This document shows positions 21,498 through 46,935 of a DNA stretch of 64,000 nucleotides, piece by piece. The notes under the pieces are model-generated. The model was not told the DNA's origin, made no database searches, and saw nothing but the letters and a program-made list of their open reading frames with translations. The stretch comes from Capsulimonas corticalis (GTDB lineage Bacteria; Armatimonadota; Armatimonadia; Armatimonadales; Capsulimonadaceae). The stretch covers positions 3,162,001 through 3,226,000 of the forward strand of contig NZ_AP025739.1 of the NCBI RefSeq assembly GCF_003574315.2, read 5' to 3'. Both the position numbers and the translations under genes were made by a program. How positions within the stretch are numbered: position 1 is the first letter of the stretch; the number at the start of each line of letters is the position of its first letter.

Positions 21498-22574
<1,077 letters not shown>

Positions 22575-22594: not shown

Positions 22595-23191
22595 TTAAAA
22601 TAATGTGATGTTGCTGTCGTCGGCGGGAGCGCTCTGCGGGGCGGGACGCGCAAGCGACTTCTTCTCTCTCGCGACTTCCGCCATCAGCGTCTGCTGATCG
22701 GCGCCGGTTGACTCCAATCGCCGCATCAGTGTGCGGCCGGTGTCCGTGAAGAAGTACACCTCGCGCGCCGCGTAGCCGCCCAGATCGCGCGAGACGATCG
22801 GGATCCCTTCGGTCTCCAGAAAGCTGAGGGCGAATCGGATATTGCTCTGCGGCACGCCGCCCGACGATTCGGCGATCCGCAGGACGTGCGCTCCGCCAAA
22901 CACCTTCGCCTGCAAGCGGCTCCGGTCGGCGCCGTGCTTCATGCAGTCGTTGATCAGCAGCTCCATGGCGTGCACGCCGTAACGCGCGCTCACGGCTTCG
23001 CCGCTGCTGCTTTCCGGCAGCATAAAGTGATTGAGGCCGCCGACGTTCACCTGAGAATCGTACAGGCCGACCGCGATGCACGATCCCAGGATTGTCCGGA
23101 CGACGGTTGGCGCCTTGCTCGCGCAGACTCCCCCGATGTGAATCGAGCGGCGCCGCCGCTCCCCAAATTCCTGCTCGTATCGCTTATTCAC
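22595..23191 (-). CDS. cheD: Chemoreceptor glutamine deamidase CheD
   Basis: The 198-residue protein has the CheD signatures TILGSCIAVGLYD (catalytic Cys), GGLNHFMLPE (catalytic His) and AKVFGGAHVL. It deamidates glutamines of chemoreceptors and in some species binds the CheC phosphatase. GTG 23191 is chosen because GGAGAAGG precedes it and it overlaps the cheR stop by four bases (GTGA), which points to translational coupling. An odd feature is a C-terminal tail of about 30 residues ending DDSNITLF, nearly the same ending as the MCP/CheZ-like protein of this operon. Confidence 0.95.
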   Translation of the reverse strand: MNKRYEQEFGERRRRSIHIGGVCASKAPTVVRTILGSCIAVGLYDSQVNVGGLNHFMLPESSSGEAVSARYGVHAMELLINDCMKHGADRSRLQAKVFGGAHVLRIAESSGGVPQSNIRFALSFLETEGIPIVSRDLGGYAAREVYFFTDTGRTLMRRLESTGADQQTLMAEVAREKKSLARPAPQSAPADDSNITLF

Positions 23192-24063
23192 GCGGCCTTC
23201 TCCACAAGTCTCTCGTTTCCGGTCAGCCGATAGATCGTCTGGCCGCAGGCGTCGAACGCATTGGATATCCCAAGCAGCGATTCTGAGTGGCCGATGAACA
23301 GCAGTCCGCCAGGCTGAAGCCGGCTCGCGAAGCGTTCGAACAGTCGCTTTTGCGTGGGCTTGTCGAAGTAGATCACCACGTTGCGGCAAAAGATAATGTC
23401 GAACTTGGTGTCGGGGCGCATCGGCCAGGACGGCTCCAGCAGATTGACTTGCCGAAAGGTCAGATGCTCCTGAAGCTCGCGCTTGACCTTGTAGGATCCC
23501 TCCCGCTCGCCGGAGCCGCGCAGGAAGTACTTGCGCAGCAGGTCGCGCGGAATCGTGTCCGTTCGGCTTTCATCGTAGATCCCGCGCTCGGCGTGCGCCA
23601 GCACGTTCGTATCGATGTCCGAGGCGAGCTGCCGCCAGTCCCATTCGGAGTGGTTCGCGAACGCCTCGGAGAGGGTGACGCCGAGCGTGTACGGCTCCTC
23701 GCCCGTCGAGCAGCCGGCGTGCCAGACGCGCAGCATCGGCTTTCGCTCGCCCCGCCGCGCGCTTTGCGCGAGCGCGGGGACCAGCTCCCGGGCGATGTAT
23801 TCGAAATGGTGCGGCTCGCGAAAGAAATCCGTCTTGTTCGTCGTGATGGAGTTGATGAAGGCGCTTTGCTCCTCGTCGTCCCCCGCGTTTGTGACGAGTT
23901 CGTAGTACTCGGAAAACGACGAAAGTCCATGCATCCGGAGTCGCTTGGTCAGCCGCGACAGCACTAGCTGCCGCTTGCCTTCGTTGATCACGATGCCTGT
24001 GAGCTGATAGATCAGATCACGAAACTTCGCGAATTCTTTATCGGTGAGTTCGGGCTCTTCCAT
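23188..24063 (-). CDS. cheR: Chemotaxis protein methyltransferase CheR
   Basis: The 291-residue protein has the N-terminal helical CheR domain (about 5-65) and a SAM-binding Rossmann domain. Diagnostic parts are TNKTDFFREPHHFEYI, VWHAGCSTGEEPYTLG (SAM motif I) and DIIFCRNVVIYFD. It methylates receptor glutamates using S-adenosylmethionine. Its stop overlaps the cheD start. The ATG at 24063 is about 330 bp from the upstream MCP gene, and that gap is largely taken by a family A palindrome, the only long gap inside the operon. Confidence 0.96.
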   Translation of the reverse strand: MEEPELTDKEFAKFRDLIYQLTGIVINEGKRQLVLSRLTKRLRMHGLSSFSEYYELVTNAGDDEEQSAFINSITTNKTDFFREPHHFEYIARELVPALAQSARRGERKPMLRVWHAGCSTGEEPYTLGVTLSEAFANHSEWDWRQLASDIDTNVLAHAERGIYDESRTDTIPRDLLRKYFLRGSGEREGSYKVKRELQEHLTFRQVNLLEPSWPMRPDTKFDIIFCRNVVIYFDKPTQKRLFERFASRLQPGGLLFIGHSESLLGISNAFDACGQTIYRLTGNERLVEKAA

Positions 24064-24390: not shown

Positions 24391-26811
24391 CTAGAACTCC
24401 TCGAAACCGTCGTCGTCCTTGATGAACGAAGTGGACGGGCGGCGGAGCGGGGCCGAGGCGCGCGGCGCGGGGGTGAACCGGCTGCTGGATATGGGCCGGG
24501 CGGGCGCGGCGGGCTTGCGGGCGGGCGACGTGGGCCGGGCTTGTTCGGAGTCGCGCATCATGGCGTCGATGTAGCTGGGATCCACCTGGAACTGTCCGAC
24601 GACGCGGACAAGGTCCTTCGCCTGGTTTGTGGTTCCCTGGCTGGTGGCGGCGGCCTCCTCGACCAGCGCGGCGTTCTGCTGCGTGATCTGGTCCATCTGC
24701 ATGATCGCGTTGTTCACCTGCTCGATGCCGGCGGCCTGCTCCTGGGAAGCGGCGGAGATTTCGGCGATGATGTCGGCGACCTTCTTGACGGAGGTGACGA
24801 TCTCGTCGAGCTGCTGGCCGCTCTGGTTGACCAGGCTGCTGCCTTCCTGAACCTTCTGCACGCTGTCCTGAACGAGCGTCTTGATCTCCTTGGCGGCGGT
24901 CGCGCTGCGTCCGGCCAGCGTACGCACTTCGGCGGCGACGACGGCGAAGCCGCGTCCCTGCTCGCCGACGCGGGCCGCTTCGACGGCGGCGTTCAGCGCC
25001 AGCAGGTTCGTTTGGAACGCGATCTCGTCGATCACGGAGATGATGTCGGCGATGCGCTTGGACGCCTTGTTGATCTCCTCCATCGAGTTGACGGCCTTAC
25101 CGACCACGCTGCCGCCGCGCTCGGCGACTTCACGGGCCTGGGCGGCGAGCTGGTTGGCCTGCCGGGCGTTGTCCGCGTTCTGCTTGACGGTGGAGGTCAT
25201 CTCCTCCATGCTCGACGCCGTCTCTTCCAGGCTGGACGCCGTTTCCTCGGTGCGGCGCGACAGATCGTCGTTGCCGGCGGAGACTTCATTCGACGACGCC
25301 ACGATGCTATCGGAGGCGACGCGGACCTGAGCGATGAGCTGCGAAAGGTTGGCGGTCATATCGTTGAACGCCGTCGCCAGCTTGCCGATGGCGTCGTCCT
25401 TCTCGACCGGGATCTGACGGGTCAGATCGCCCTGCGTGATCGCGAGGGCGGCGCTCATCATCTCCTCAACCTTGGCCGAAAGATACTCTTTCTCCGCGAT
25501 CTGCTCCTGCTGGCGCGCTTCCATCGCGACCTTTTCGGTGATCCGCTCCCAGTAAACGACATAGCCGGCCACGGCGCCCTTATCATCCTTGGTGCTGGTG
25601 ACGGTGACATCGCAGACGCACGGCCCCGTTTTGATGCGCGACTGGTAAGGATGATTTCGCGAATCGGACGCTTTGCGGAACTCCTCGGGCTCGTCCGTGA
25701 ACAGCCAGCCCAGGGATTTGCCGATCGTCTCATCGGCGCGGAACGATCGCCAGGCGTCGCTGTGCCGGTGCAGATTCGGCTCCATGAAGCGCATGATATC
25801 GACGGCCTTCTCGTTGGCGTACAGAACGTTCCAGTTGATGTCGCACAGGAAGGTGTTCGACGTGGACTTATCCAGGGTGGTCATGAGCTGCTGGACGCGC
25901 GCTTCCTGAGCGACCTTCTCCGTGATCCGCTCCCAGTAAACCGCGTAGCCCGTGACGCCGCCCTTTTCATTGCGCGTGCTGGTGACGGTGACGTCGCAGA
26001 CGCACGGCCCGGTCTTGATGCGCGCCTGGTAGGGGTGGTTGCGCGGGTCGGACGCCTTGCGGAACTCTTCCGGCTCGTCCGTGAAGAGCCAGCCCAGAGA
26101 TTTACCGATCGTTTCGTCGGCGCGGAACGACTTCCAGGTGTCGCTGTGGCGGTGGAGGTTCGGCTCCATGAAGCGCATGATATCGACGGCCTTCTCGTTG
26201 GCGTACAGAACGTTCCAGTTCATATCGCACAGGAAGGTGTTCGATGTCGAGTGCTCCAGCGTCGTCATCAGCTGCTGGGCGCGGGCCTCTTGAGCCAGCT
26301 TATCCGTGATCCGCTCCCAGTCCACGGCGTAGCCCAGGAGATCGCCGTTCGCGGCGCGGATTCCGGTGATCTGGACATCGCAGGTGCAGGGGCCGGTCTT
26401 GATCTGAGCCTGGTAGGGGTGGTTGCGCGGATCGGCGGCGCGCCGGAACTCCAGCGGCTCATCGGTGAAAAGGAAGCTGAGGTTGCCGCCGACGATATCC
26501 GCCGCGCGGAACGAGCGCCAGGAATCGTTGTGCGCGTGCAGGTTCGGCTCCATGAACTCCAGGATATCGAAGCTCTTCTTGTTGGCGAACAGGATATTGA
26601 AGTCCTTGTCGCAGAGGAACGTGTTGGAGCGGGAGTTGTCCAGGGCAGTGTGCGCCCACGCCATCAGGTCCGGGGCCTTCGGCGTATTCGCCACCACGGA
26701 GAGCTTGGGGCGGGGAGTGCGCGTCGGCTTGTTCTCGCCCTCCACCACGTTCAGTTCGGTCTTGCGCGCCGTGGCGCGCGGTGTCGTCGTCGATTTTGCG
26801 GCTGCTGCCAT
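24391..26811 (-). CDS. Soluble methyl-accepting chemotaxis protein with three tandem PAS-like domains
   Basis: The 806-residue protein has no membrane segment, so it should act in the cytoplasm. Three repeats of about 122 residues start near residues 63, 185 and 307, each opening NTFLCD and containing MEPNLH and NHPYQ; repeats 2 and 3 are almost identical. They look like PAS-type sensors. A short HAMP-like stretch follows, then the MCP signalling domain with the tip [20 protein letters not shown]. The end DDDGFEEF resembles the pentapeptide tail that tethers CheR/CheB in some receptors. AGGAG precedes ATG 26811. The ligand is unknown; cofactor-based redox sensing is possible. Confidence 0.93.
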
Positions 26812-26856: not shown

Positions 26857-27354
26857 TTAGGCCGCAAGCGCGAGGGGAGCGGGCTCCCCGAGCAGAACGA
26901 TGTCGATGTCAAGCAAGATGATCAGGTTTTCTCCCATGCGCGCCATCCCCTGAAGAGTGCTCGCGTTCATGGAGTTTCCGAAATCGGGAGCGGGCTGGAT
27001 ATCGCTGAGGGGGATATTCACCACCTCGGAGACGCTGTCCACGATTACGCCCATCACCCGGTTCTGTACGACCACGACGACGATCGCCGTGAACTGGTTG
27101 TATTCGATCTCCTCCAGGCCGAACTTGCGGCGCAGGTCGACGATCGGCACGATGGTGCCGCGCAGGTTGAGCACGCCGACCACTTCGGGAGGAGCGTTGG
27201 GGATGCGCGTCGTAGGCACATATCCCTTGATCTCCTGAACCTTCAGGATGTCCACCCCGTACTCTTCATCCCCCAGCGAGAAAGTGAGGTACTGGTTGGC
27301 GTCGGTGGAATGTCCGGCGTCGTTCTGTGAAAACTGCGTTTGTTCAAGCGCCAT
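26857..27354 (-). CDS. cheW: Chemotaxis coupling protein CheW
   Basis: The 165-residue protein is a single CheW domain: QYLTFSLGDEEYGVDILKVQ, the arginine-bearing TRIPNAPPEVVGVLNLRGTI, and FTAIVVVVVQNRVMGVIVDS. It links receptor tips to CheA in signalling arrays. The ATG at 27354 has AAGGA upstream. It lies between cheA and the soluble MCP gene with short gaps on both sides, as expected for one operon. A short Ala-rich tail ends the protein. Confidence 0.95.
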   Translation of the reverse strand: MALEQTQFSQNDAGHSTDANQYLTFSLGDEEYGVDILKVQEIKGYVPTTRIPNAPPEVVGVLNLRGTIVPIVDLRRKFGLEEIEYNQFTAIVVVVVQNRVMGVIVDSVSEVVNIPLSDIQPAPDFGNSMNASTLQGMARMGENLIILLDIDIVLLGEPAPLALAA

Positions 27355-27379: not shown

Positions 27380-29473
27380 TTAGGCGGCCGCGGCGAGGGC
27401 GGCGCTCTCCGAAAGGGTATCCCGTACTAATCCCGGAACGTCCAGGATCAACGCGACTCGGCCGTCGCCCATGATCGTGGCGCCGGCGATCCCCCGCACC
27501 TTGCGATAATTCGTCTCCAGGCTCTTAATCACCACCTGGCTCTGTCCGATCAGCTCGTCCACGAGCAGCGCGACCTTGTGGTTATCGTTTTCGACGATCA
27601 CCAGCAGCCCTTGCGTCGGGTCCGTCACCTTCGGGCTGGACCCGAAGACCTGATACAGGCGGACAACAGGCAGCACCTCGCCGCGAACCAGCGCGATCTC
27701 CGTGCGCCCCGCGATCTTCCGGACATCGCCGGCGGCCGGCTGGATACTTTCCACGATGCTCGTCAGCGGCAGGATATACGTCTCGTTGCCGACCGTCAGC
27801 GACAGTCCTTCGAGGATCGCCATCGTAAGCGGCAGGCGGATGCGGAATGTCGTGCCCACGCCGGGCGTGGAGGTCAGGGTGATCGAGCCGCCCAGCGCCT
27901 GCACGCCCTGCTTCACGATGTCCATGCCGACGCCGCGTCCGGAGAGGTCCGTGACCGCCGGCGCCGTCGAAAATCCGGGCATGAAGATGAAGTTGTAAAG
28001 CGTCTCATCGGAGGGCGTGTCGTTTTCCGTCACCCAGCCGCGCTCGATCGCTTTCTTTAAGATCCGCTCACGGCTCAGGCCGCGCCCGTCGTCGGAAACC
28101 TCCACGGCGATGCTGCCGCCTTCATGCAGCGCGTGCAGCGAGACAGTTCCCTGTTCGGGCTTGCCGGCGGCGCGCCGCTCTTCGGGCGTTTCCAGGCCAT
28201 GGTCGATGGAGTTGCGGACCAGATGGGTGAGCGGATCCGCGATGGATTCGATCATGCCCTTGTCCAGCTCGGTGTCCTCTCCCGAGGTCTTCAGCTCGAT
28301 CTTCTTGCCGACCGTCGCGGCCAGATCGCGCACCAGGCGCGGGAAGCGTCCGAAGGCGTGCTTGATCGGGAGCATCCGGACCGCCATCACGCGCTCCTGA
28401 AGCTCGCGGGAGGCGCGCTCCATCTCGGCGACGGCTTCGATCAGGCGGGGAAGCTTCGCCATGGAGAAGTCCTGCACGACTTCGTTGAGCATCGACTGAT
28501 TGATGACCAATTCGCCGACTAAGTTGATCAGCTTATCGACTTTGTCGGTCGCGACTCGCAGCGTCTGCGCCTCGGCCGGCGGCGCGGCCTTCGCGGCGGC
28601 TTCGACGGGCAGGGCGGCGGGCGGAGCCATGGCCGGCGTGGGCTCCGCCGCCGGGACTTCGGCGACCGGTTCGGCGGCGGGGGGCGCGGCCTCCATAGGG
28701 GCCGCCGGCGCCGCTGCGGCGGGGGAACGGGTTTCGCTAGTGACTTCGAGGCGGATCTCGCTGTCGTCGGCCACGAACTCAAAGATCTCCAGGATCTCCT
28801 CGGAGGTTTTGTCCGAGCGCAGCTCCACTTCCCAGCTCAAATAGCACGCTTCGGGATCCATGTCGGCGAGCGCGGGCAGGCGGGAATCGTCGCAGACGAT
28901 GCTGAGGATATCGCTCACCTTGCCGAGCTGTCCGAGCAAAAGCAGGGGATCTCCGCCCTGGCGCAAAATGTCCGGCCCGGGGGCGAAGTACAGGCGATAG
29001 GTGTGGGCAAGCGACCAGACGCCCCATCCCTCTTCCTCGGCGGCTTTTTGCTTCGGGAGGGTTGGCTGGGCGGCGACGATGGCCGGCTGGCCGAGGATCG
29101 CGGCCTCGATCCGCGCGGACAGCGCGGAGGAATCCGGAGCCGACGCGCTTTCGCCGCGTGCGACGGAAAGTAGGGCCTTCATCTGGTCGAGGGATTCAAA
29201 CAGGACCTGGGAGAGGGAGCGATCGATCTTGATCTCTCCGTTGCGCACCTTGTCCAGCAGCGTTTCCAGACCATGGGTGAAGTGCGCGATGTCCGTGAAT
29301 CCAAAGGTGGCGCTGCCGCCCTTAATGGAGTGCGCGCACCGGAAGATGGTGTTGAGCAGCTCCAGGTCGCCCGGATCTTCCTCCAGGCGCAGCAGCAGGC
29401 CCTCTAAGTCGGCCAGCAAATCACCGGCTTCTTCGAAAAAAGCCTGGTGGAACATGGTCATGTCAAGGTTCAC
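27380..29473 (-). CDS. cheA: Chemotaxis histidine kinase CheA
   Basis: The 697-residue protein shows the CheA layout. An HPt domain carries the phosphorylated H48 in RCAHSIKGGSATFGF. A second regulatory segment and a Pro/Ala linker (about 250-310) follow, then the dimerisation helix region (LINLVGELVINQSMLNEVV), an ATPase domain with HLVRNSIDHGLE, DDGRGLS and GRGVGMDIV, and a C-terminal CheW-like domain. It phosphorylates CheY and CheB. The GTG at 29473 overlaps the cheY stop (GTGA) and has AAGGTG upstream, suggesting coupled translation; ATG 29461 is an alternative. Confidence 0.97.
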   Translation of the reverse strand: MNLDMTMFHQAFFEEAGDLLADLEGLLLRLEEDPGDLELLNTIFRCAHSIKGGSATFGFTDIAHFTHGLETLLDKVRNGEIKIDRSLSQVLFESLDQMKALLSVARGESASAPDSSALSARIEAAILGQPAIVAAQPTLPKQKAAEEEGWGVWSLAHTYRLYFAPGPDILRQGGDPLLLLGQLGKVSDILSIVCDDSRLPALADMDPEACYLSWEVELRSDKTSEEILEIFEFVADDSEIRLEVTSETRSPAAAAPAAPMEAAPPAAEPVAEVPAAEPTPAMAPPAALPVEAAAKAAPPAEAQTLRVATDKVDKLINLVGELVINQSMLNEVVQDFSMAKLPRLIEAVAEMERASRELQERVMAVRMLPIKHAFGRFPRLVRDLAATVGKKIELKTSGEDTELDKGMIESIADPLTHLVRNSIDHGLETPEERRAAGKPEQGTVSLHALHEGGSIAVEVSDDGRGLSRERILKKAIERGWVTENDTPSDETLYNFIFMPGFSTAPAVTDLSGRGVGMDIVKQGVQALGGSITLTSTPGVGTTFRIRLPLTMAILEGLSLTVGNETYILPLTSIVESIQPAAGDVRKIAGRTEIALVRGEVLPVVRLYQVFGSSPKVTDPTQGLLVIVENDNHKVALLVDELIGQSQVVIKSLETNYRKVRGIAGATIMGDGRVALILDVPGLVRDTLSESAALAAAA

Positions 29474-29847
29474 GCTGGAAGCACCTTTTCAATCACCTTG
29501 AGCAGCTGCTCGGGATGGAACGGCTTGACGATCCAGCCGGTCGCGCCGGCCGCCTTGCCTTCCGCCTTGCGGCCGTCGCCGCTTTCGGTGGTCAGCATAA
29601 GAATCGGGGTGAAGCGAAGCCCGGCCTTCGTGCGGGCTTCTTTGATAAAGGTCAGCCCGTCCATGACGGGCATGTTGAGGTCCGTGATGATCAGATCGAC
29701 TTTGCCGCCGGGCGCGCTTGCGAGCTTCGCCAGGGCTTCCTGGCCGTTGCCGCCTTCCAGGACGGTAAATCCCGCGCCTTTGAGCGTAAAGCCCACCATC
29801 TGCCGCATGGACGTCGAATCGTCCACGATCAGTGCTGTTTTTGCCAC
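29470..29847 (-). CDS. cheY: CheY-type response regulator
   Basis: The 125-residue single receiver domain has the acidic pair D9-D10, the phospho-acceptor D56 in LIITDLNMPVMDG, T86/T87 in MLTTESG and K108 in WIVKPFHPEQ. The last segment is close to chemotaxis CheY proteins. It would carry the signal from CheA to the motility output, which may be a type IV pilus or a flagellar switch; no motility gene is in view. Its stop codon overlaps the cheA start by four bases. Confidence 0.93.
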   Translation of the reverse strand: MAKTALIVDDSTSMRQMVGFTLKGAGFTVLEGGNGQEALAKLASAPGGKVDLIITDLNMPVMDGLTFIKEARTKAGLRFTPILMLTTESGDGRKAEGKAAGATGWIVKPFHPEQLLKVIEKVLPA

Positions 29848-29940: not shown

Positions 29941-31122
29941 TTAGAACAGGGTAATATCGTCGTCGTCCGATTGGTAGCTGACGACTTCCAGCGTCGGCGC
30001 CGCCCCGACGGCGTGAGCCATGAATGTGTTTTGTCCGACGGCGTAGGCGAGCGTCGCGTGCGCCTCCGCGCTTTCCCCGCATTCGCCGCGCAGCGTGTCG
30101 CGCATGCGGGAGAGCGGATCGGCGACGTGCTCCAGGCGCTGCCGCAGCAGATCGTGGAACTGGAAGGCGATGACGATCTTGCCGATGTCGTCGCTGACCT
30201 TCAAACTGCGGTCGCCCAGGTCGCTGACGGCGGCCTGCGTGATCTCGTCGGCGGTGCGGATCATTTCCAGAAGGTCGTTGATGGCGATCTGCGCCGAGCA
30301 GCTTTTTTCCAAACTCAGTTCGGCGGCGATGCCCAGCGCGTCAAAAATCGATTCGCTGTCCTCGCTGACCTGGCTGGTCAGCAGGCGCATCCGCTCGGTC
30401 GCCTGGCGGCTGCGCTCGGAGAGCTTGCGCACCTCGCCGGCGATGACCGCGAAGCCCAGTCCCGCCTGCCCGGCCCGCGCCGCCTCGATGGAGGCGTTGA
30501 AGGCGAGCAGCACCGTCTGGTCGGCGATCACCTCAATGTCGTCGAGAAGCTTGCGCAGGTGTACGGATACTTCGGTCAGCGATTGGATCTGTTTTGCGGT
30601 GCGGGAGATCTGGCGGGCGGTGCTGAGCATGCCCTCGACGAATCCTCCCATCACGTCCGTCGCCTGCGTGGCGATCTTCGTGACGCTTTCGTCGTTGTCC
30701 GATCCCGCGACCTGCTGCGCGCTGATCGCCGCTTCCCGGGAATCCGATGAGATCTGTAGGAACGAGCCGATCGCGGCCGAAACGGCTTCCTCGGCTTCCG
30801 ACAGCGCCGTGACGACCTGCCCCGCGAGGTGATCGGCCATCTCGGCGACCTGGTTTGTGATGCGCAGGCGCTCTTCGTCGGCGCGGACCAGCGCCTCCTC
30901 GGCCTCTTCCGCGGCGGCGAGACGCTCCTGCGCGAACGCTTCCGCCTCCGCCGCCTGCTCGGTTAATAACCGGATCTGCGCGTCCTGCGCCGCAATGCGG
31001 GCCGTCAGCTCGGCGTTTTGCGCCTCCAACTCAAACAGCCGCTCTTCCATGCCGCTGACCGTGGCGTGCGCCGGCGCCGGCGTGTCCGCCGCCGGGTTCG
31101 TTTTCGAGGGGAACCATTTCAT
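29941..31122 (-). CDS. Soluble MCP-like protein with CheZ-like phosphatase motif
   Basis: The 393-residue protein has no membrane segment. Residues about 24-100 are a coiled coil. Residues about 190-245 hold an MCP hairpin tip ([20 protein letters not shown], then [16 protein letters not shown]). Near the end [14 protein letters not shown] carries D324-x3-Q328, the same spacing as the catalytic Asp/Gln pair in E. coli CheZ (QDFQDLTGQ). The protein finishes with DDDDITLF, comparable in position to CheZ's CheY-binding tail. It may therefore dephosphorylate CheY-P inside a receptor-like scaffold; that role is inference. ATG 31122 overlaps the STAS stop (ATGA). Confidence 0.75.
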
Positions 31123-31424
31123 AGGGACAGCCCCGCTGTTTTCGCGTCCATGAGTACGCGGTCCGTCGCCCCGGTGATCTCGACCGTTCTGCCGGCCGCG
31201 GCGGCGTCGCGCCGCAGCGCGCTCAGGATTTGGAAGGACGAAATGTCCAGCCGCTCCACATCCGACATCTCCACACGGATGGCTGCGGCCTGAGTGTCCT
31301 CCAGCGCTTTGCGCGCGGTTTCGTGGAACGCGGCGGCTTCGAACATGTCGATCGCTCCGTGCAGCGTCAATGCGCCGACGGCGCCGCGCCGACGATATGC
31401 AACACTCTTTTTCGCGGTAGGCAT
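31119..31424 (-). CDS. STAS-domain protein, first gene of the chemotaxis operon
   Basis: The 101-residue protein is a single STAS-type domain ([19 protein letters not shown], then [20 protein letters not shown]). The loop DISSFQ corresponds to the phosphorylatable loop D-S-(A/S)-G of anti-anti-sigma factors, although Gly is replaced. It is similar to STAS proteins found in other chemotaxis-like clusters of the alternative-function type. ATG 31424 has AAGGA upstream. Its stop codon overlaps the next start (ATGA), so the two products are probably made in fixed ratio and may interact. Confidence 0.8.
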
Positions 31425-31631
31425 AGGTTCGATCGTCCTTAATGTCTGGGAAATGGATAGGCGTAACTGTGCTGAAGCCATTATCGGCGCTCGCGCTCGA
31501 CTTCTTGAGCGGCTTTTTCGCTGGAGCGTCATTCGGGGCGATTTGGTCTGAAAAAGTGGGCGTCCCTTGCCGACAATCCAATGCGAGACTCGCGCGCAGC
31601 GCGCCGATTATGGAAACGATTGGACGTCCCT

Positions 31632-34600
31632 ATGACTTCTCCGATACCCGACAACGAAGAACAGCGCCTGGAAGCCCTGCGTCGATACCGCATTTTGGAT
31701 ACTCCCCCCGACCTCTCGTTTGACCGGATCACCGCTCTCGCGGCGCGTGTCTTCGAGACTCCGATTGCGCTGGTCACGTTGCTGGATGAGGATCGGCAGT
31801 GGCTTAAATCGCGCCATGGCGTTGATGTATGCCAAACCGACCGGGGCGTGGCCTTTTGCGCGCACGCGATCATGACGACCGATGTTTTGGTCGTCGAGGA
31901 CGCGCGGCTGGACCCTCGTTTTTCGGACAATCCCCTGGTCGTCGGCGGACCTCAGGTTCGCTTCTACGCCGGCGCTCCTCTGCGCACTCAGGACGGCCTC
32001 AATCTGGGGACGCTCTGTGTCCTCGACATCAAGCCCCGGGCATTCTCCGAGGATCAGCGGCAAAACCTGGCGGATATGGCCGCGATGGCGATGAGCGAAC
32101 TGGATCTGCATCTGCGCTCCCAGGAACTCGCCCTGATCTGCCGCCGCGAGCGGGAGACGAACAGTCTCCTCGCCACCGTCACGAAGTATATGCCGGGTGT
32201 GATCTTCGCGCTGGACGAAAACGGCGTCTACACCCTGATGGACGGCGCCGGAGTGCGGTCCGCCAATCTGGACCCGCGCGAAATGGTCGGCAAGTCGTGC
32301 ATGGATGTTCTGAGCTCGTCTCCCGATCTTCGGGACTGCGTCGCCCGCGCGCTGAAAGGCGAATTGACCGCCTGGATCGGCGAATATCAAGGGGTTTGCT
32401 ACGAGACTCATGGCCGTACGATCCGTGACGATTCTGGAAAGATCACCGGGCTGATCGCCGTCGCCAACGATATCACGCTGCGCCGTACGACCGAGCAGGA
32501 GCTCCGGCGGATCGTTTTGCAGACCGAGCATCTGCTGGCCTCGCTGCCTTCGGTACTGATCGGCGTGGATGAAACGGACGTTATCACGGTCTGGAGCGCG
32601 GCCGCCAGCCGCCTCTTCGGCAAGACGACGTCTGATATGGTGGGCAAGCCGTTCGCCGAATGCGGCATTCTCTGGGATTGGATCGAGATCACCCGGGCGG
32701 TGCGCGAATGCAAGGCGTCGTCCCAGGTGGTGCGCCTCGACGATGTGTGCTATATGCGTCCCGACGGTTCGGAGAGCATTCTGGGCGTGAGCATCAACCC
32801 CATCAGTGAATCGTCGGTCGGCAATATGGGATTCCTGCTGCTGGCGGCCGACGTTTCGCGCCGGCGCCAGGAGGAGGAAGCGCTGCGGCAGGCGGAGCTC
32901 AAGTTCCGCTCGATCTTCGAAAACGCCGTGGAGGGCATCTTTCAGTCGACGCCGGACGGCCGCTTTTTGAGCGTCAACCCCGCCTTCGCGCGGATCGCCG
33001 GCTATGAAACTCCGGACGAGCTGATGGCGCATGTGACGGACGCGGGAAAGAACCTCTACGTCAACCCCGTGGAGCGGCAGGAGTTCGTTCGCCGCTTGAT
33101 GACCGACGGCATCATCAAGGACTTTCTCATCCAGCATCGGCGCAAGGATGGTGGCCTGGGCTGGATCACCGCGTCGGCGCGCACGATCAAAGACGCCAGC
33201 GGCGCGGTCTCTTATTTTGAAGGCAGCGTGCTCGATATCACCGAGCGCAAGCACGCCGCCGAAGGCATGAGCCAGCTCGCGGCGATCGTCGAGTCGTCCG
33301 ATGACGCGATTATCGGCAAAACCCTCGACGACGTCATCGTCAGCTGGAACCCGGGAGCGGAGCGGCTTTACGGCTATTCTCTGGAAGAAGCGGTCGGGCG
33401 CAAATTCAATGAACTCGTTCCTCCCGCGCACGCCTCCGATGGGTCTCCCTCGCTGATGGAGCGCTTGCTGCGCCTGGAGCCGATCAGCAGCTTCGAGACG
33501 GCCCGGGTCGCCAAGGACGAGCGTGTGGTGGAGATCTCCGTGAGCATTTCGCTGATCCGCAACGCCGAGGGCGAGCCAATCGGCGTATCGTCGATCGCAC
33601 GCGATATCACGCTGCAAAAGCAGGCGCAGCAGGAGCTGGCCGACACGGCGTTCGAGCTGGAATGGCGCAACTGGGAGCTGGCGGAGGCGCGCGACGCCGC
33701 GCTCGCCGCCGCGCGCCTGAAATCCGAATTCCTCGCGAATATGAGCCATGAGATCCGCACGCCGATGAACGGCGTGATCGGGATGATCGATGTGCTTCTG
33801 CACACGCCGCTGGACGAAGGGCAGCTCGACTGCGCGCGGACGGTGAAGCAGTGCGCGGACGCGCTAATGACCGTAATCAACGACATCCTCGATTTCAGCA
33901 AGATCGAAGCGGGGAAGATGACGATCGAGACGGTGGAGTTTACGCTGCACGAACTGCTGGAAGACGTCTGCGTGCTCCTTTCCGCGAAGGCGAAGGAGAA
34001 AAACCAGGAGCTGGTCTGCGCGATGCCGCCTCTGTCCTTCGCGCCGACGTTTGGGGCGGGACGGATCCTGGGCGATCCCAGCCGCCTGCGCCAGGTGGCG
34101 ACCAACCTGCTGAGCAACGCCGTCAAATTTACCGACGACGGCGGTGAAGTCGTGCTCGGCGCCGAACTGATGTCGGAGAGCGCGACCGAAGCGACATGGC
34201 GCATCTTCGTTCAGGACAACGGCATCGGGATCCCGAAGGACCGCCAGGCGGCGATCTTCGAGAGCTTTACGCAGGCGGACGGATCGACGACGCGTCGTTA
34301 CGGCGGCACCGGGCTGGGGCTGACGATCTGCCGGCAGCTTGTGGAGCTGATGGGCGGAACGCTGGCCGTCGAAAGCGACGCCGGGCAGGGGAGCACTTTT
34401 TCCTTTGAGCTGACCTTTGAGAAGCAGGTGAAGGGATCGGCGCCGGCGCGGCTTCCCAAGACCCTGCCGCCGCTTCGGGTGCTGGCGGTGGACGCCAGCG
34501 GCGAAAGCCGGCGCAAATTGCAGTCGCTGCTGGGCGCCTGGGGGTGCCGCGTGACGGTGGCGTCCGGCGAGGCGAGCGCGCTGAAGCTGCTGTCAGGCGA

Positions 34601-35735
34601 GCTGAGCGTGGAGGGCGCCGACGCGATTCTGATCGACTCGGAAGTGGAGGACGGCGACGGCGTCGCGGTCGCGCGCCGCCTGAAGGCGGAGGCAAATCTG
34701 TCCGATGTGCCGATCATTTTGCTGACCGGTCGGGAGGCGCGAAGCCAGGAAGACACGAAGCTATTCGCGGCCCTGGTGCGCAAGCCGCTGCGCCAGTCCG
34801 AGATGTTCCAGGCGCTCGCGCGCCTCTTTGGCACCGGCGATCCGTCCGGTTTCGAAGATGTGGAGCGGCCCGAGCAGATCCTGCTGGATGTGAGCGCGCG
34901 CAGCGCGCGTGTGCTGCTGGTGGAGGACACTCCGATCAATCAGAAAGTCGCGCGCCGTCTTCTGGAGCAGGGCGGATACGAAATGGACGGCTTGACCGTG
35001 GCGAACAATGGGGCGGAGGCGGTCGAGGCGTTCCAGTCCGGCGTATTCGACCTGATTCTGATGGATGTGCAGATGCCGGGAATGGACGGCCTGGCGGCGA
35101 CGGGAGCGATACGCCGATGGGAATTTGCGGAAGAGCGCACGCGCACGCCGATCGTGGCGATGACGGCGCACGCCATGACCGGCGATCGTGAGCGCTGCCT
35201 TTCCGCCGGCATGGACGACTATATCACCAAGCCGATCAACGCCCCGGACCTTTACGCCGCCTTAAATCGCGGTCTCTCCGAGGCGCCGTACGCCAGCGAA
35301 ACCCGCCATGCCGCCGAGGGTGTCCCGGCGGAGCCGGACTCCGGCGAAGAACGGGAAGAGATCGCCTCCCAGGAGATTTTGGACCCCTCACGTTTAGCGC
35401 AGCTCTGCGCGGGGGATCTGAATTTTGAGCGGGAGATGCTGCTGGAGTTCCTCGGCGCCGCGCCAAGGATGCGCCAGCGCTGTGAGATGATGCAGGAAAT
35501 CGGCGACTGCGCCGGCCTTCAGCACTGGGCCCATACCCTGAAGGGCGCCGCCGCCGCGATCGGCGCGATGAGGCTGGTGGATCTGTGCCAGGAATGGGAG
35601 AATGCGGCGGCGGAGGAAGATGTCAGCCGCGTTGATTCCCAGGCGGCGCGGGTCTCCAAGGAGATGGAGCGCGTCGAGACCCATTTGAACGCGCGCGTTG
35701 CCGCCATTGGCGAGCCATATGCAAAATCACTCTGA
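31632..35735 (+). CDS. Large hybrid histidine kinase (GAF, several PAS, HisKA, HATPase, two receivers, HPt)
   Basis: The 1,367-residue protein lacks membrane segments. In order it has a GAF domain (about 20-165; PIALVTLLDEDRQWLKSRHG), four PAS/PAC units (about 180-690; e.g. FENAVEGIFQSTPDGRFLSV), a HisKA with H706 in FLANMSHEIRTPMNG, an ATPase (QVATNLLSNAVKFT, GTGLGLTI), a divergent receiver with D1002 in ILIDSEVEDG, a canonical receiver with D1145 in LILMDVQMPGMDG, and an HPt with H1301 in WAHTLKGAAAAIGA. Thus a full phosphorelay is in one chain. ATG 31632 is chosen from the GAF boundary. It is divergent from the chemotaxis operon and precedes a response regulator. Confidence 0.95.
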   Translation: MTSPIPDNEEQRLEALRRYRILDTPPDLSFDRITALAARVFETPIALVTLLDEDRQWLKSRHGVDVCQTDRGVAFCAHAIMTTDVLVVEDARLDPRFSDNPLVVGGPQVRFYAGAPLRTQDGLNLGTLCVLDIKPRAFSEDQRQNLADMAAMAMSELDLHLRSQELALICRRERETNSLLATVTKYMPGVIFALDENGVYTLMDGAGVRSANLDPREMVGKSCMDVLSSSPDLRDCVARALKGELTAWIGEYQGVCYETHGRTIRDDSGKITGLIAVANDITLRRTTEQELRRIVLQTEHLLASLPSVLIGVDETDVITVWSAAASRLFGKTTSDMVGKPFAECGILWDWIEITRAVRECKASSQVVRLDDVCYMRPDGSESILGVSINPISESSVGNMGFLLLAADVSRRRQEEEALRQAELKFRSIFENAVEGIFQSTPDGRFLSVNPAFARIAGYETPDELMAHVTDAGKNLYVNPVERQEFVRRLMTDGIIKDFLIQHRRKDGGLGWITASARTIKDASGAVSYFEGSVLDITERKHAAEGMSQLAAIVESSDDAIIGKTLDDVIVSWNPGAERLYGYSLEEAVGRKFNELVPPAHASDGSPSLMERLLRLEPISSFETARVAKDERVVEISVSISLIRNAEGEPIGVSSIARDITLQKQAQQELADTAFELEWRNWELAEARDAALAAARLKSEFLANMSHEIRTPMNGVIGMIDVLLHTPLDEGQLDCARTVKQCADALMTVINDILDFSKIEAGKMTIETVEFTLHELLEDVCVLLSAKAKEKNQELVCAMPPLSFAPTFGAGRILGDPSRLRQVATNLLSNAVKFTDDGGEVVLGAELMSESATEATWRIFVQDNGIGIPKDRQAAIFESFTQADGSTTRRYGGTGLGLTICRQLVELMGGTLAVESDAGQGSTFSFELTFEKQVKGSAPARLPKTLPPLRVLAVDASGESRRKLQSLLGAWGCRVTVASGEASALKLLSGELSVEGADAILIDSEVEDGDGVAVARRLKAEANLSDVPIILLTGREARSQEDTKLFAALVRKPLRQSEMFQALARLFGTGDPSGFEDVERPEQILLDVSARSARVLLVEDTPINQKVARRLLEQGGYEMDGLTVANNGAEAVEAFQSGVFDLILMDVQMPGMDGLAATGAIRRWEFAEERTRTPIVAMTAHAMTGDRERCLSAGMDDYITKPINAPDLYAALNRGLSEAPYASETRHAAEGVPAEPDSGEEREEIASQEILDPSRLAQLCAGDLNFEREMLLEFLGAAPRMRQRCEMMQEIGDCAGLQHWAHTLKGAAAAIGAMRLVDLCQEWENAAAEEDVSRVDSQAARVSKEMERVETHLNARVAAIGEPYAKSL

Positions 35736-35777
35736 GTATTTTGCCGGTATATTCCGAAAATAGGGATGAGAAAACCC

Positions 35778-36170
35778 ATGAAAATCATTATTGCTGAAGA
35801 TGATCCCGTTTCGATGCGCGCTCTGCGCATGGTGCTTGAGAGCCTCGGCCATCAGGTGACCGCCGTCGCCAGCGGCGCGCTCGCCTGGTCCGCGCTGCAG
35901 GCCGAAACGTTCCCCATCGTCATTACCGACTGGATGATGCCGGACATGGATGGAATAGAACTTTGCCGGAATATCCGGTCGCGCAAGAACGCCCCTTATA
36001 CGTGCGTCATCATGCTCACGGCCAAACAAACCCGCGAAGACCGCGTCAAGGGCCTCAACGCCGGCGCGGATGTCTTCCTGACCAAGCCGCTCGTCCGCGA
36101 AGACCTGATCGCGCGCCTCCAAGTCGCCGAGCGGATCCTGATGCTGGAACAAGGCGCGCCTGCCCGCTAA
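35778..36170 (+). CDS. Single-domain response regulator
   Basis: This roughly 130-residue receiver has the acidic cluster in IIIAEDDPVSMRA, the phospho-acceptor in VITDWMMPDMDG, the Thr in IMLTAKQTRED and the Lys in VFLTKPLVRED. A short helix follows (LQVAERILMLEQ), as in receivers that feed GGDEF or HPt partners. It lies about 40 bp after the hybrid kinase gene and is likely its output partner. An ATG at 35766 would add four residues; neither start has an ideal ribosome binding site. Confidence 0.9.
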   Translation: MKIIIAEDDPVSMRALRMVLESLGHQVTAVASGALAWSALQAETFPIVITDWMMPDMDGIELCRNIRSRKNAPYTCVIMLTAKQTREDRVKGLNAGADVFLTKPLVREDLIARLQVAERILMLEQGAPAR

Positions 36171-37897: not shown

Positions 37898-39079
37898 ATG
37901 ACGGATGATCGTTCGCGCTTTGGCGTCCCACGAGAAGATTTGAAAGACAGTCAGGCCGCCGAGGCTCTGCGCCGCGAGGCCGAGCTGCCGGAGGCCGGAT
38001 GGCGAAAGGAAGTCGAACGGGGGCTGGAGCTTGGCTTGACCGCCGCGCCGAGCATCGGCGACCGCACCATCTCGACCTTTTCACGCGGCGAGCTGCCGCA
38101 CTTCGCGGGCATCAACACGTTTTTGAAGGCCCCGTATGTGGAGGATGTCCATAAGGCCGGCCAGTTCGACGCCGCCGTGTTCGGCATCCCGCTCGATACG
38201 GGAACGACCTACCGGGCCGGCACGCGCTTCGGTCCGCAGGGCGTCCGCCGTATTTCGGCGCTGTACGGCTCGTATTACTTCGATCTGGGGATCGATCTGC
38301 GCGAACAGATGACGCTCTGCGACCTGGGCGATGTCTTCGTCATTCCCGCGAACATCGAGAAGGCGTTCGATCAGATCAGCCGCGCCGTCTCGCACGTTTT
38401 TCGGAGCGGCGCTTTCCCGATCATGATCGGCGGCGACCATTCCATCGGCTACCCCTGCGTTCGCGGCGTCGCCCCGCATGTTAACGGCAACATCGGCATC
38501 ATTCATATTGACCGCCATGTCGATACGCAGGAGAAGGACATGGACGAGCGGATGCACACCACGCCGTGGTTCCATGCGACCAACATTGAGAACGCTCCGC
38601 CGAAGAATCTTGTGCAGTTCGGCATTGGCGGCTGGCAGGTGCCCCGCGCCGGCGTCAAAGTCGCCCGTGAACGCGGCACCACCATCATGACCATGACCGA
38701 TATCATGGATATGGGTCTGGACAAAGCGCTGGATATTGCGATCGAAGTGGCGAGCGAAGGGACCGAAGCGGTCTATCTGAGCTTCGACATCGACAGCATC
38801 GACGCCGGCTTCGTCCCCGGCACGGGCTGGCCGGAGCCGGGCGGCTTCACGCCCCGCGAAGCCCTGCGGATCGTCCAGCGCGTCGCACGTGAAACCAACC
38901 TCTGCGCCATGGAGCTGGTCGAAGTCTCGCCGCCGTACGATGTCAGCGACATGACCGCCTTGATGGGAACACGCGTCATCTGCGATGTCCTCGCCAATCT
39001 GGTCTTCGCCGAAAAGCTGCCCCGCCAGCGTCCGACCTGGCTGAACTCGGACCCGTCCACGGAGCCCTGGGCTCTTTAG
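37898..39079 (+). CDS. gdmH: Ni-dependent guanidine hydrolase-type ureohydrolase (GdmH-like)
   Basis: The 393-residue protein is an arginase/agmatinase-fold enzyme. Metal ligands are visible: H181 in GGDHSIG, D205, H207 and D209 in IDRHVDTQ, and D297 and D299 in SFDIDSID. Annotation pipelines would call it agmatinase. It has instead the pattern of the cyanobacterial guanidine hydrolase Sll1077/GdmH: a long N-terminal region of about 90 residues, DERMHTTPWFHATN, and a Trp in GTGWPEPGG (W311). It lies directly before HypA- and HypB-like genes, as known for GdmH. The reaction would be guanidine plus water to urea plus ammonia. Agmatinase or another guanidino substrate cannot be excluded from sequence alone. 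Confidence 0.8.
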   Translation: MTDDRSRFGVPREDLKDSQAAEALRREAELPEAGWRKEVERGLELGLTAAPSIGDRTISTFSRGELPHFAGINTFLKAPYVEDVHKAGQFDAAVFGIPLDTGTTYRAGTRFGPQGVRRISALYGSYYFDLGIDLREQMTLCDLGDVFVIPANIEKAFDQISRAVSHVFRSGAFPIMIGGDHSIGYPCVRGVAPHVNGNIGIIHIDRHVDTQEKDMDERMHTTPWFHATNIENAPPKNLVQFGIGGWQVPRAGVKVARERGTTIMTMTDIMDMGLDKALDIAIEVASEGTEAVYLSFDIDSIDAGFVPGTGWPEPGGFTPREALRIVQRVARETNLCAMELVEVSPPYDVSDMTALMGTRVICDVLANLVFAEKLPRQRPTWLNSDPSTEPWAL

Positions 39080-39092
39080 GAGATTCGGACCC

Positions 39093-39482
39093 ATGCCGCA
39101 TGAAGTGGACATGACCAAGGCGCTGATGATGAGCTTGAAGGACTGGCATTCGCAGCAGACCGAGCGCTGGCCGGTGCGCCGCGTCCAACTCGTGGTGGGC
39201 GAATTCACCTGTGTCGAACCTGATCTCTTGCGCACCGCGTTCGCGAAGCAAAAGCTGGGAACATTTCTCGAAAACGCCGAGATCGTCATTCGCGACAGCC
39301 CGTTCATCGCTTACTGCAACCGCTGCGAGCGCGAATACAAGCCCGATATCAATCTGGAGTACGCTTGCCCTGATTGCCGAGCGCCGCTGGACGATATCCG
39401 GTCCGGACGCGAACTGAAGATCGAAAAGATCGACTGGGATGTGCCCGCCCCGGTTTCCGCGGAGGCGGCGGCGCGGAATTAG
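39093..39482 (+). CDS. hypA: HypA-like nickel metallochaperone
   Basis: The 129-residue protein has the HypA zinc-finger pair C75-x2-C78 and C92-x2-C95 (YCNRCER, ACPDCRA). The N-terminus reads MPHEVDMTKA, whereas hydrogenase HypA normally starts MHE with His2 binding nickel; here a Pro shifts the His to position 3. No hydrogenase gene is present. Placed 13 bp after the guanidine-hydrolase gene with AGGAGA before the ATG, it probably helps load nickel into that enzyme, as the GhaA accessory protein does in cyanobacteria. Service to urease is also possible. Confidence 0.85.
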   Translation: MPHEVDMTKALMMSLKDWHSQQTERWPVRRVQLVVGEFTCVEPDLLRTAFAKQKLGTFLENAEIVIRDSPFIAYCNRCEREYKPDINLEYACPDCRAPLDDIRSGRELKIEKIDWDVPAPVSAEAAARN

Positions 39483-39508
39483 AGCGGCCCTCACCCGGCG
39501 GTCCGCGT

Positions 39509-39649
39509 GGCCCTCACCCCGGCTCCCTCTCCCAATTTTGGGAGAGGGGAGGCGGAATGAAATGAGGGCCCTTGATTTGAAGATCGGAAAAATAAAACTC
39601 TGGCTCCCCTTCTCCCAAAATTGGGAGAAGGGGCTGGGGGATGAGGGCC
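39509..39649. repeat. Palindromic repeat family B, copy 1
   Basis: The element opens GGCCCTCACCCC and closes with GGATGAGGGCC. The left part carries CCCTCTCCCAATTTTGGGAGAGGG and the right part CTTCTCCCAAAATTGGGAGAAG, each itself a hairpin. It fills the hypA-hypB gap. The closing arm supplies GAGGG nine bases before the hypB ATG. Copy 2 is at 61734-61887. Confidence 0.8.
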
Positions 39650-39656
39650 AATTCTT

Positions 39657-40352
39657 ATGATTACCGAAACCCAACAGCCCACGCTCACCTCAACGAGCGT
39701 GGACCTCGATATCAATATTCTCGAAGAAAATGACGACCTCGCCGCGCGCAGCCGCCGCCGGATGGAGGATCATGGGATCGCCTGCGTCAACATCATGTCC
39801 AGCCCCGGTTCGGGTAAGACGACGCTCTTGGAGCGGACGCTGACCGATCTGAACGGCGCCCTCAAGATCGGGATTATGGAAGGCGACATGACGACCGAAC
39901 TGGACGCGGAGCGACTCCGCGACTGCGGCGCGCCGGTCGTCGCGATCACCACCGGCCGGTCCTGCCATTTGGAGGCTGACCAGATCGCGGCGGGACTGGA
40001 TACTCTGGAGCGCGAGGGCGGCCTGGACCGCTTCGACCTGATGGTGATCGAAAACGTCGGGAATCTGATCTGCCCGGCGGCGTACGATCTGGGCGAGCAC
40101 ACCCGCGTCGTCCTGGTCGCCGTGACCGAGGGCGAGGACAAGCCGCTCAAGTACCCGATCATGTTCCACGGCGCCGACTGCGTCGTGATTACCAAGACGG
40201 ATCTCGCGCCGTATGTCAAACTGAATGTCGACAAATTGATCGCGAATATCCGTCAGGTCAACGCCACCGCCACCGTGTTCGCCGTTTCGTCCGAGACGGG
40301 CGAGGGGATGGAGATTTGGCTGGGGTGGCTGCGGGGACAGCGACGAGGGTAA
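39657..40352 (+). CDS. hypB: HypB-like nickel-handling GTPase
   Basis: The 231-residue protein has the SIMIBI GTPase P-loop SSPGSGKTT (48-56), the switch segment EGDMTTELDAERL, the metal-site-like GRSCHLEAD with adjacent Cys and His, and the NKxD-equivalent VITKTDLAP. It lacks the N-terminal CCGC or His-rich nickel-storage region present in some HypB proteins. It would drive GTP-dependent nickel delivery, together with the HypA-like protein, to the guanidine hydrolase (GhaB in cyanobacteria). Its Shine-Dalgarno sequence lies inside repeat B1, so translation might depend on the fold of that repeat. Confidence 0.88.
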   Translation: MITETQQPTLTSTSVDLDINILEENDDLAARSRRRMEDHGIACVNIMSSPGSGKTTLLERTLTDLNGALKIGIMEGDMTTELDAERLRDCGAPVVAITTGRSCHLEADQIAAGLDTLEREGGLDRFDLMVIENVGNLICPAAYDLGEHTRVVLVAVTEGEDKPLKYPIMFHGADCVVITKTDLAPYVKLNVDKLIANIRQVNATATVFAVSSETGEGMEIWLGWLRGQRRG

Positions 40353-40364
40353 TACACCCCCGGG

Positions 40365-40514
40365 GCAAACCCACCCCCGCGCTCCGCGCGACCCCTCCCG
40401 CCGACGGGAAGGGTGACTAAGATTGCCTCTTACAGTCGCGGCCTGCGATAAACACTCTGAAATCACCCTTCCCGTCGGCGGGAGGGGTCGCGCGAAGCGC
40501 GGGGGTGGGTTTGC
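40365..40514. repeat. Palindromic repeat family A, copy 2
   Basis: It is exactly 150 bp like copy 1, with arms beginning GCAAACCCACCCCCGCGC and ending in the reverse complement. The central segment (GATTGCCTCTTACAG, then CTGCGATAAACACTCTGA) matches copy 1 read on the other strand, so the two copies have opposite orientation. It occupies half the hypB-to-binding-protein gap; the remaining 130 bp hold no gene. Confidence 0.85.
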
Positions 40515-40650
40515 AGGGAGTCCGGGAAGCCCCGAGATAGATCTGCGTCAATATCAATATCCACACCCGCTCAACGACGAGCACCCTCGAGCATGGCGCT
40601 CGCTTCCTTAGGATCCGCAATTTGCGTTCACAAGAAAGGAACGATTGTCC

Positions 40651-41757
40651 ATGCAGGCCATCCGTACATCGAAATTCGTCAAACTTGCTCTTACTATAGC
40701 TCCTCTTGGCCTGATGCTCACCGCCTGCGGTCCCAAGACTCAGACGGCTTCCTCCACGGCCCCGACTCCCGGAGCTCCGGCGGCGGCTCCGCCCGCCGAC
40801 GCCACGCCGATCACGATCGGCTATTCCGACTGGCCCGGATGGACCTGCTGGGATATCGCGGATCAGCAGGGATTCTTCAAAAAGCATAATGTCAATGTCA
40901 AGCTCGTCTGGTTCCCGAACTACACGGATTCGCTGAACGCGATCACCGCGCAGCAGGTGGACGCTAACTGTCAGACCTGGAGCGACACCATGGGGCCGCT
41001 GGCTCAGGGGCAGGCGCTCAAGGCGGTTCTCATCAACGACAACTCCGCCGGGAACGACGCGGTGGTGGCGAAGGCCGGCATTACATCGATCAAGGATCTC
41101 AAGGGCAAGAAGGTCGCGACGGAGCTTGGCACCGTCGAGCAGTTTTTGCTGGATCAAGCCCTCGCCGCGAACGGCATGAGCGAGAAGGATATCCAGTATG
41201 TCAATATCAAGGTGCAGGACTGCCCCGCCGCGATGCTGAGCGGGAAGATCGACGCCTGCGCGGTGTGGGAGCCGAACAAGAGCCAGCTCCTCAAGAGCTT
41301 CCCCGGCTCCACGGTCATCTTCGACAGCAAGAAACTTCCCGGCCTGATCCCCGACTTGCTCGTCTTCCAGTCCAAGGTCGTCGATGCCCGGCCGGCGGAT
41401 ATCCAGAATATCGTCGACGCCTGGTATGACGCGCTCGACTGGTGGCGCGCGCATCCCGATGACGCCGTAAAGATCATGGCGAAGCGCACCGATTCCCCGG
41501 TCGATTTCTACAAGAGCTTCATCCAGGGCACGCGCATCTTCGATGCGACCGAAGCCGAAGCGGCCTTCACCAAGAGCGACAAACCGACTTCGCTTTACAA
41601 GAGCGCGCCGACGATCGGGCAGTTCCTGCTCGACCAGAAGCAGATTCCCAAGATCCCGGACTACGCCCCCGTGATCGACGACACGTTCATCAAGGCGGCG
41701 GTCGCGAAGGGTGAGGGCAAGCAGCCCCCGTACGACTATGCGCTGAAGGTGGATTAA
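40651..41757 (+). CDS. ABC transporter substrate-binding lipoprotein (NitT/TauT type), probable guanidine binding
   Basis: The 368-residue protein has a lipoprotein signal with lipobox LTAC (Cys26), a Thr/Ala/Pro-rich linker, and a periplasmic binding fold of the nitrate/taurine/sulfonate class: ITIGYSDWPGWTCWDIADQQ, FFKKHNVNVKLVWF and LKGKKVATELGTVEQF. AAAGGA precedes ATG 40651. Its membrane and ATPase partners follow. In cyanobacteria a related importer is linked to the guanidine hydrolase, so guanidine is the likely cargo; urea is the main alternative because urease genes follow. Confidence 0.9.
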   Translation: MQAIRTSKFVKLALTIAPLGLMLTACGPKTQTASSTAPTPGAPAAAPPADATPITIGYSDWPGWTCWDIADQQGFFKKHNVNVKLVWFPNYTDSLNAITAQQVDANCQTWSDTMGPLAQGQALKAVLINDNSAGNDAVVAKAGITSIKDLKGKKVATELGTVEQFLLDQALAANGMSEKDIQYVNIKVQDCPAAMLSGKIDACAVWEPNKSQLLKSFPGSTVIFDSKKLPGLIPDLLVFQSKVVDARPADIQNIVDAWYDALDWWRAHPDDAVKIMAKRTDSPVDFYKSFIQGTRIFDATEAEAAFTKSDKPTSLYKSAPTIGQFLLDQKQIPKIPDYAPVIDDTFIKAAVAKGEGKQPPYDYALKVD

Positions 41758-41858
41758 TCGCGCCATTCGTACTGTGGGAATGTGAATCCGCAGGCGGCGG
41801 GGCCGGAAACATGTTCGCCGGTCCCGCTGGAGAAATTGAGACGAAAGGAACCGCCACC

Positions 41859-46605: not shown

Positions 46606-46935
46606 ATGATTCCCGGAGAAATCTGGACCGAGCCCGGCGACATCGCCGCCAATGTCGATCGTCCGACCGTGCAAGTGATTGTCAGCCATACCGGTGACCG
46701 GCCGATTCAAATCGGCAGTCATTATCATTTTTTCGAAGTCAATCCGGCGCTGACGTTCGACCGCGACGCCGCGCGCGGGATGCGGCTGAATATCGCGGCC
46801 GGGACCGCCGTGCGCTTTGAGCCGGGCGAGGAGAAGGAAATCACCCTCGTCGCGTTCGCCGGAGATCGCATTGTCTTTGGGCACAACGCCCTTGTGTCCG
46901 GCCCGCTCGATAAGAACCCAGGAGATCCCGCATGA
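46606..46935 (+). CDS. ureB: Urease beta subunit UreB
   Basis: The 109-residue protein has the UreB features [52 protein letters not shown] and the [13 protein letters not shown] end. It packs against UreC in the urease core. AGGAGACCC precedes ATG 46606. Its stop overlaps the ureC start by four bases (ATGA). Confidence 0.97.

Follow-up and report, generated by a model that had tools for sequence, protein, structure and literature searches.

CheZ acts on CheY-P through a glutamine that positions the attacking water and an aspartate that binds CheY, and its C-terminal tail also binds CheY. In the Escherichia coli protein (PF04344) the two residues form the motif D143-x3-Q147, which is followed by a linker and an acidic C-terminal LxF peptide. 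CheC, CheX and FliY likewise dephosphorylate CheY-P, using another fold and an E-x2-N motif. In the published CheZ signature, AXXFQ directly precedes DXXXQ (PMC7750401). According to the review PMC12654446, CheT of Sinorhizobium meliloti carries a DXXXQ motif and is not similar to CheZ in sequence (Agbekudzi et al. 2024, doi 10.1111/mmi.15303); the review also states that CheT associates with CheR in a complex and that, of two CheYs, it hastens the dephosphorylation of just one, and it cites the finding that the STAS protein CheS, together with CheA, accelerates the dephosphorylation of CheY1 (Dogra et al. 2012). The ancestral F7 operon has the order STAS (anti-sigma factor antagonist), cheY, cheA, cheW, receptor, cheR, cheD, cheB, and contains no cheZ (PMC7184735). 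Chemoreceptors may end in pentapeptides, such as GWEEF, that bind CheR and CheB (PMC7698151). Our literature search found no description of CheY phosphatases embedded in MCPs.

The stretch of DNA analysed here (the window; 64,000 nucleotides) comes from the 7.6-Mb genome of Capsulimonas corticalis (Armatimonadota) and contains a che operon that runs on the minus strand between 31.5 and 21.5 kb. Its first gene encodes a STAS-domain protein (31119..31532; PF13466/PF01740; real start uncertain) in a CheS-like position, a slot that a STAS gene also occupies in relatives. The second gene encodes a receptor-like protein of 393 aa (29941..31122; PF00015), whose first 4 nt overlap the end of the STAS gene. 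It is followed by cheY (29470..29847; PF00072), by cheA, which overlaps cheY (27380..29473; Hpt, H-kinase_dim, HATPase_c and CheW domains), and by cheW (26857..27354; PF01584), a full-length MCP with PAS and HAMP domains (24391..26811; Pfam), cheR (23188..24063; PF01739), cheD (22595..23191, start inferred; PF03975) and cheB (21498..22562; PF01339 and PF00072). The gene order and the absence of cheZ are shared with the ancestral F7 operon, from which this operon differs by its single cheW and by a candidate receptor-phosphatase inserted between STAS and cheY. Since a STAS protein and a DxxxQ protein are both present, the operon pairs CheS-like with CheT/CheZ-like components. Beside the operon start, positions 31581-36170 hold a stand-alone receiver and a divergent ORF of 1384 aa, whose translation suggests a PAS/histidine kinase/receiver hybrid.

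A preliminary description of this DNA had proposed the receptor-like protein as the CheY-P phosphatase of an operon devoid of cheZ, cheC and fliY. The absence of these genes holds for the operon, and the whole genome is also without a PF04344 CheZ match. It cannot be extended to the CheY phosphatases of the whole cell, because a CheX-like ExxN protein, the sole CheC-type match in the genome, is encoded at 1.12 Mb within another che locus, a finding that counts against the phosphatase reading. This second locus (contig C1, ~1.117-1.121 Mb) comprises an MCP, a cheB-like gene, its own cheY and the CheX-like ExxN phosphatase.

The MCP signalling domain (PF00015, E 2.8e-23) spans residues 169-311 of the receptor-like protein (30190..30618), has the canonical hairpin-tip sequence and matches MCP cytoplasmic domains in the PDB. 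The protein resembles soluble or short MCPs (PF00015) in its hairpin tip and signalling domain; it differs from them in that Pfam revealed no sensor domain, in that its C-terminal helix ends in a CheZ-like motif, and in a tail unlike the CheR/CheB pentapeptides of MCPs. The motif, D324-x3-Q328, lies in a conserved segment (residues 320-333; 30124..30165) that is in register with the active-site helix of CheZ. A linker predicted to be disordered leads to the C-terminal tail DDDDITLF (residues 386-393; 29944..29967), and the CheD of the operon ends in DDSNITLF (22598..22621); motif and tails are all present as the preliminary description had reported. No other non-overlapping ORF of the window has an ITLF-type end. 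The full-length MCP ends in DDDGFEEF, which is pentapeptide-like and represents another code.

With E. coli CheZ, the receptor-like protein has in common the D-x3-Q motif, the linker and the acidic LxF peptide (ITLF as against LLDSLGF), whereas it carries an MCP tip, has no PF04344 match and appears to lack the stand-alone hairpin, which in CheZ is a dimeric four-helix structure. Several results speak against the phosphatase reading: Pfam gave no PF04344 match and NCBIfam no direct CheZ match; AlphaFold predicted long helices with low confidence scores (pTM 0.33 and 0.40); and Foldseek searches with these low-confidence models returned MCPs or nothing significant, and no CheZ. A CheC-type domain with E-x2-N was likewise absent by Pfam.

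Orthologues (E <= 1e-20) were detected in 10 of 291 Armatimonadota genomes. They are 33-87% identical to the receptor-like protein, the closest coming from a Capsulimonas sp. MAG, and they share its operon slot, motif and tail. An alignment of 10 rows, comprising orthologues and a receptor-less homologue, has as invariant columns Q321, D324, Q328, R329, L330, H332 and L337 together with D388, L392 and F393. When the ten orthologues are aligned, nine retain D, Q and the LF tail. The tenth, a divergent copy in genome G046 (locus L020; FAYHEMLSERLSHI), has E for both D and Q and lacks the LF end; motif and tail look as though they had been lost jointly, and the copy tells against the phosphatase reading. 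In the distant armatimonadotal family Chthonomonadaceae (G053) the same operon occurs with a CheD that ends in DDNNITLF, and within the same clade DDSNITLF, EDDRVTLF or comparable ends are found on several CheDs, but not on those of other clades. Orphan relatives in three genomes (L033, L034 and L023) lie outside any che operon and, by eye, seem to carry membrane helices at the N-terminus. A simple complementary distribution of the gene and CheC/CheX across genomes was considered and rejected, because the Armatimonadota genomes that bear the gene also hold CheC-type genes.

Genome G099 contains, between STAS and cheY, a homologue of ~148 aa without an MCP domain (L077, 14515-14958; exact start uncertain). 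It retains the D-x3-Q helix (IVVSFQFQDLHKQRLEHV) and the tail (end SSADDQTLFEAA), which reads ADDQTLFEAA. To judge from its sequence, this gene is a natural deletion in which the receptor part has gone and the motif helix and tail have been kept.

A tblastn search of plasmids with the C-terminal part returned mostly weak matches and one Methylosinus match (E 1e-4) that opened an alphaproteobacterial branch; the same search with L126 gave no match in plasmids. The alphaproteobacterial relatives, of ~580-620 aa, lie in che clusters; they contain LQIGDxTRQRxEHV and have acidic ends of the LF type, for example DEDLLAGALF. Profile A2, built on the C-terminal region, matched in 69 of 398 sampled Pseudomonadota genomes. 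A profile restricted to the helix, with the tail excluded, retrieved 83 distinct proteins, including two true CheZs; one of the 83 comes from an Armatimonadota locus (L218) and the others from Pseudomonadota. Leaving the CheZs aside, a strict tail pattern, [DEGNS][IVF]x[LFM]F, was present in 72 of 81 helix-profile relatives and in none of 263 neighbouring CheY, CheA, CheB, CheW, CheR and MCP proteins, a contrast to be read with the caution that A2, whose columns include the tail, had served to collect the loci in the first place, although most A2 matches stopped short of the tail columns. The same pattern occurs in three of five neighbouring CheDs, and in all three loci the CheD and the phosphatase-like gene have closely paired tails (GEVDLF and GDVDLF, GEVELF and GEIELF, GDIELF and GSVELF). 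A che gene lies within ~5 kb of 66 of 82 family genes, and cheY follows directly after 28.

Stand-alone relatives without an MCP domain have 150-230 aa; in 11 receptor-less relatives, the only invariant residues are Q, F, D and Q and the terminal L-F. Across the helix alignment, D...Q is present in 91 of 96 sequences. Two tail codes coexist in a Vibrio plasmid operon, where the receptor ends in DEWEEF, CheD in DDDVELF and a short receptor-like protein in GEVELF. Altogether motif and tail occur together in some 90 relatives belonging to two phyla, and the family carries no Pfam or NCBIfam name. Five stand-alone relatives (L191, L196, L197, L198 and L143; 190-230 aa) end in DDIELF; for three of them no nearby che gene was found, and two have one che-like gene on the opposite strand.

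An hhalign alignment of this family with gamma/beta CheZ covered 50 columns without offset, with D143 matched by D and Q147 by Q; its score was 22.1, at a probability of 68% and an E of 4.7e-5 for the single comparison. The probability reached 93% once two alphaproteobacterial CheZs had been added, a value that is less independent because both came from the family profile itself. A score of 22.1 was attained by none of 300 column shuffles (best 17.2) and none of 200 shuffles preserving the heptad phase (best 16.1), while reversed profiles scored 8-9 and canonical MCPs 9.4. Masking the 13 motif columns left an E of 0.009, so much of the CheZ signal is the motif itself; the D-x3-Q likeness may have arisen by motif convergence. 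Moreover, the Armatimonadota rows alone matched CheZ weakly (probability 4.4%), significance being reached only with the broad family, which weighs against the phosphatase reading. The two alphaproteobacterial CheZs retrieved by the helix profile are bona fide (PF04344 E 1.4e-12 and 3.1e-11) and have a FliM-like end, QSEIDALFN. Five other family members gave sub-threshold CheZ matches in the right segment (Pfam or NCBIfam). The AXXFQ-DXXXQ signature is complete in the Armatimonadota relatives L019 and L021, and the receptor-like protein, which reads AFQFH, is one residue off (H at the last position of AXXFQ); family-wide, it is exact in 14 of 96 sequences and relaxed in 57.

CheT is the nearest tested analogue of the receptor-like protein. 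Both have DxxxQ without a match to the CheZ model and are encoded in che operons that also contain cheD and the gene of a STAS protein (CheS in the case of CheT); CheT differs in its size (~120 aa), the lack of an MCP domain, its place at the operon end and its binding to CheR. The sequence LQxxDxxxQ occurs in CheT-like proteins of plasmid che operons from Sinorhizobium, Phaeobacter, Ruegeria and Acetobacter, in which the CheD ends are IEFF, VTLF, VTLF and IELF. The Acetobacter CheT-like protein ends in SGEVDLF and that of pSymB in GDFEAF. The family profile matched CheT-like proteins weakly (E 0.015-0.38 in a 5-sequence database), and the best aligned part misses the motif, a further point against the phosphatase reading.

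We favour, at a probability of about two in three, the reading of the receptor-like protein as a chemoreceptor that incorporates a CheZ/CheT-like phosphatase directed at the CheY of its own operon, probably an overlooked off-switch within the receptor array. The phosphatase proposal has acquired strong comparative support at the sequence level: motif and tail are co-conserved, they survive the loss of the receptor, the gene often stands by cheY, and the family aligns with CheZ. CheY-P dephosphorylation, the activity proposed for the protein, would be the one performed by CheC, CheX and FliY, none of which is encoded in the operon. The MCP hairpin tip would place the protein in the CheA/CheW array, as suggested by the intact signalling domain, and the C-terminal helix, higher in the coiled coil, would present D324 and Q328 to phosphorylated CheY. 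By analogy with CheZ, Q328 would position the attacking water and D324 would bind CheY. The acidic ITLF tail on its disordered linker may serve as a docking peptide for a partner, most likely CheY. We infer catalysis, tail partner and array placement alike from these comparisons.

The choice of CheY over CheR as the docking partner of the tail is likewise one that we infer; CheY is favoured because CheZ tails bind CheY and because the retrieved alphaproteobacterial CheZs have FliM-like ends. FliM of this genome carries LSQNEIEALL (L227, contig C1, ~5.6725-5.6744 Mb). Next to it is encoded a FliN-like protein with LTQDALDALF and MSDADVADLF, two FliM-N-like peptides that may provide additional docking sites for CheY. 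The tail common to the receptor-like protein and CheD, already pointed out in the preliminary description, proved real and recurs in other lineages. Since CheD carries the same peptide, it could be brought to this partner as well, or compete for it, and the shared peptide would tie signal termination to adaptation.

An alternative that keeps the phosphatase as described takes the ITLF tail for a pentapeptide-like tether to CheR (or CheB), so that CheD and the phosphatase would both be recruited to CheR. Receptor pentapeptides such as GWEEF do bind CheR and CheB (PMC7698151), CheT is reported to form a complex with CheR (PMC12654446), and the GDFEAF end on pSymB resembles the MCP tail DGFEEF. 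However, the full-length MCP of the same operons already has a distinct FEEF or WEEF end, the other code being common to CheD and the phosphatase, and the FliM-like QSEIDALFN ends of the CheZs found with the profile also argue against a CheR tether. We regard CheR as a serious alternative partner, though a considerably less likely one.

It is less probable still that the D-x3-Q helix and the tail serve only to bind CheY-P and do not catalyse its decay, acting as a sink, a localiser or a regulator of CheA access, with dephosphorylation left to the CheX elsewhere in the genome. The presence of a CheX-like gene would suit such a role, and the case of CheT, which according to PMC12654446 accelerates dephosphorylation for one CheY out of two, shows that a protein with DxxxQ need not be active on every CheY. 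On the other side, D and Q are near-invariant, which is the selection expected from catalysis and not from mere binding, and the CheX sits at another che locus with its own CheY. Finally, an ordinary cytoplasmic chemoreceptor with a chance D-x3-Q would account for the MCP signalling domain and its canonical tip, but this was rejected as highly improbable on the basis of conservation, the absence of Q..D...Q from the corresponding helix of all 33 canonical MCPs compared, and the receptor-less homologue, in which motif and tail outlast the receptor domain.

In broader terms, the odds appear evenly balanced that these proteins constitute an unrecognised CheZ-like phosphatase superfamily of Armatimonadota and Pseudomonadota, marked by [AS]xQ[FY]xDxxxQ and a C-terminal [DEG][IVF]x[LF]F, whose peptide CheD shares for a single partner. 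The superfamily would then take three forms: stand-alone proteins of 150-230 aa, MCP-tip fusions of 330-440 aa and longer MCP-like proteins of 570-640 aa. If so, it would provide many che operons that have no cheZ, cheC or cheX with the phosphatase they seem to lack, and the recruitment of phosphatase and deamidase to one partner would link termination with adaptation. A phosphatase embedded in the array would place the off-reaction beside the kinase and explain how CheY-P is switched off in ancestral F7 operons, described as having no cheZ of their own. The tail shared with CheD makes the proposed connection of signal termination with receptor adaptation concrete enough to be tested.

Two other loci of the window deserve mention. 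Positions 37898-42743 encode, by eye, an agmatinase-family enzyme and, after it, nickel chaperones resembling HypA and HypB and an ABC transporter of the NitT/TauT type, and look like a nickel guanidine hydrolase locus. An Rfam match to 5_ureB_sRNA (47103-47382; 56.6 bits) lies antisense inside the plus-strand ORF 46932-48653, which looks like a urease gene, and may merely reflect conserved coding sequence.
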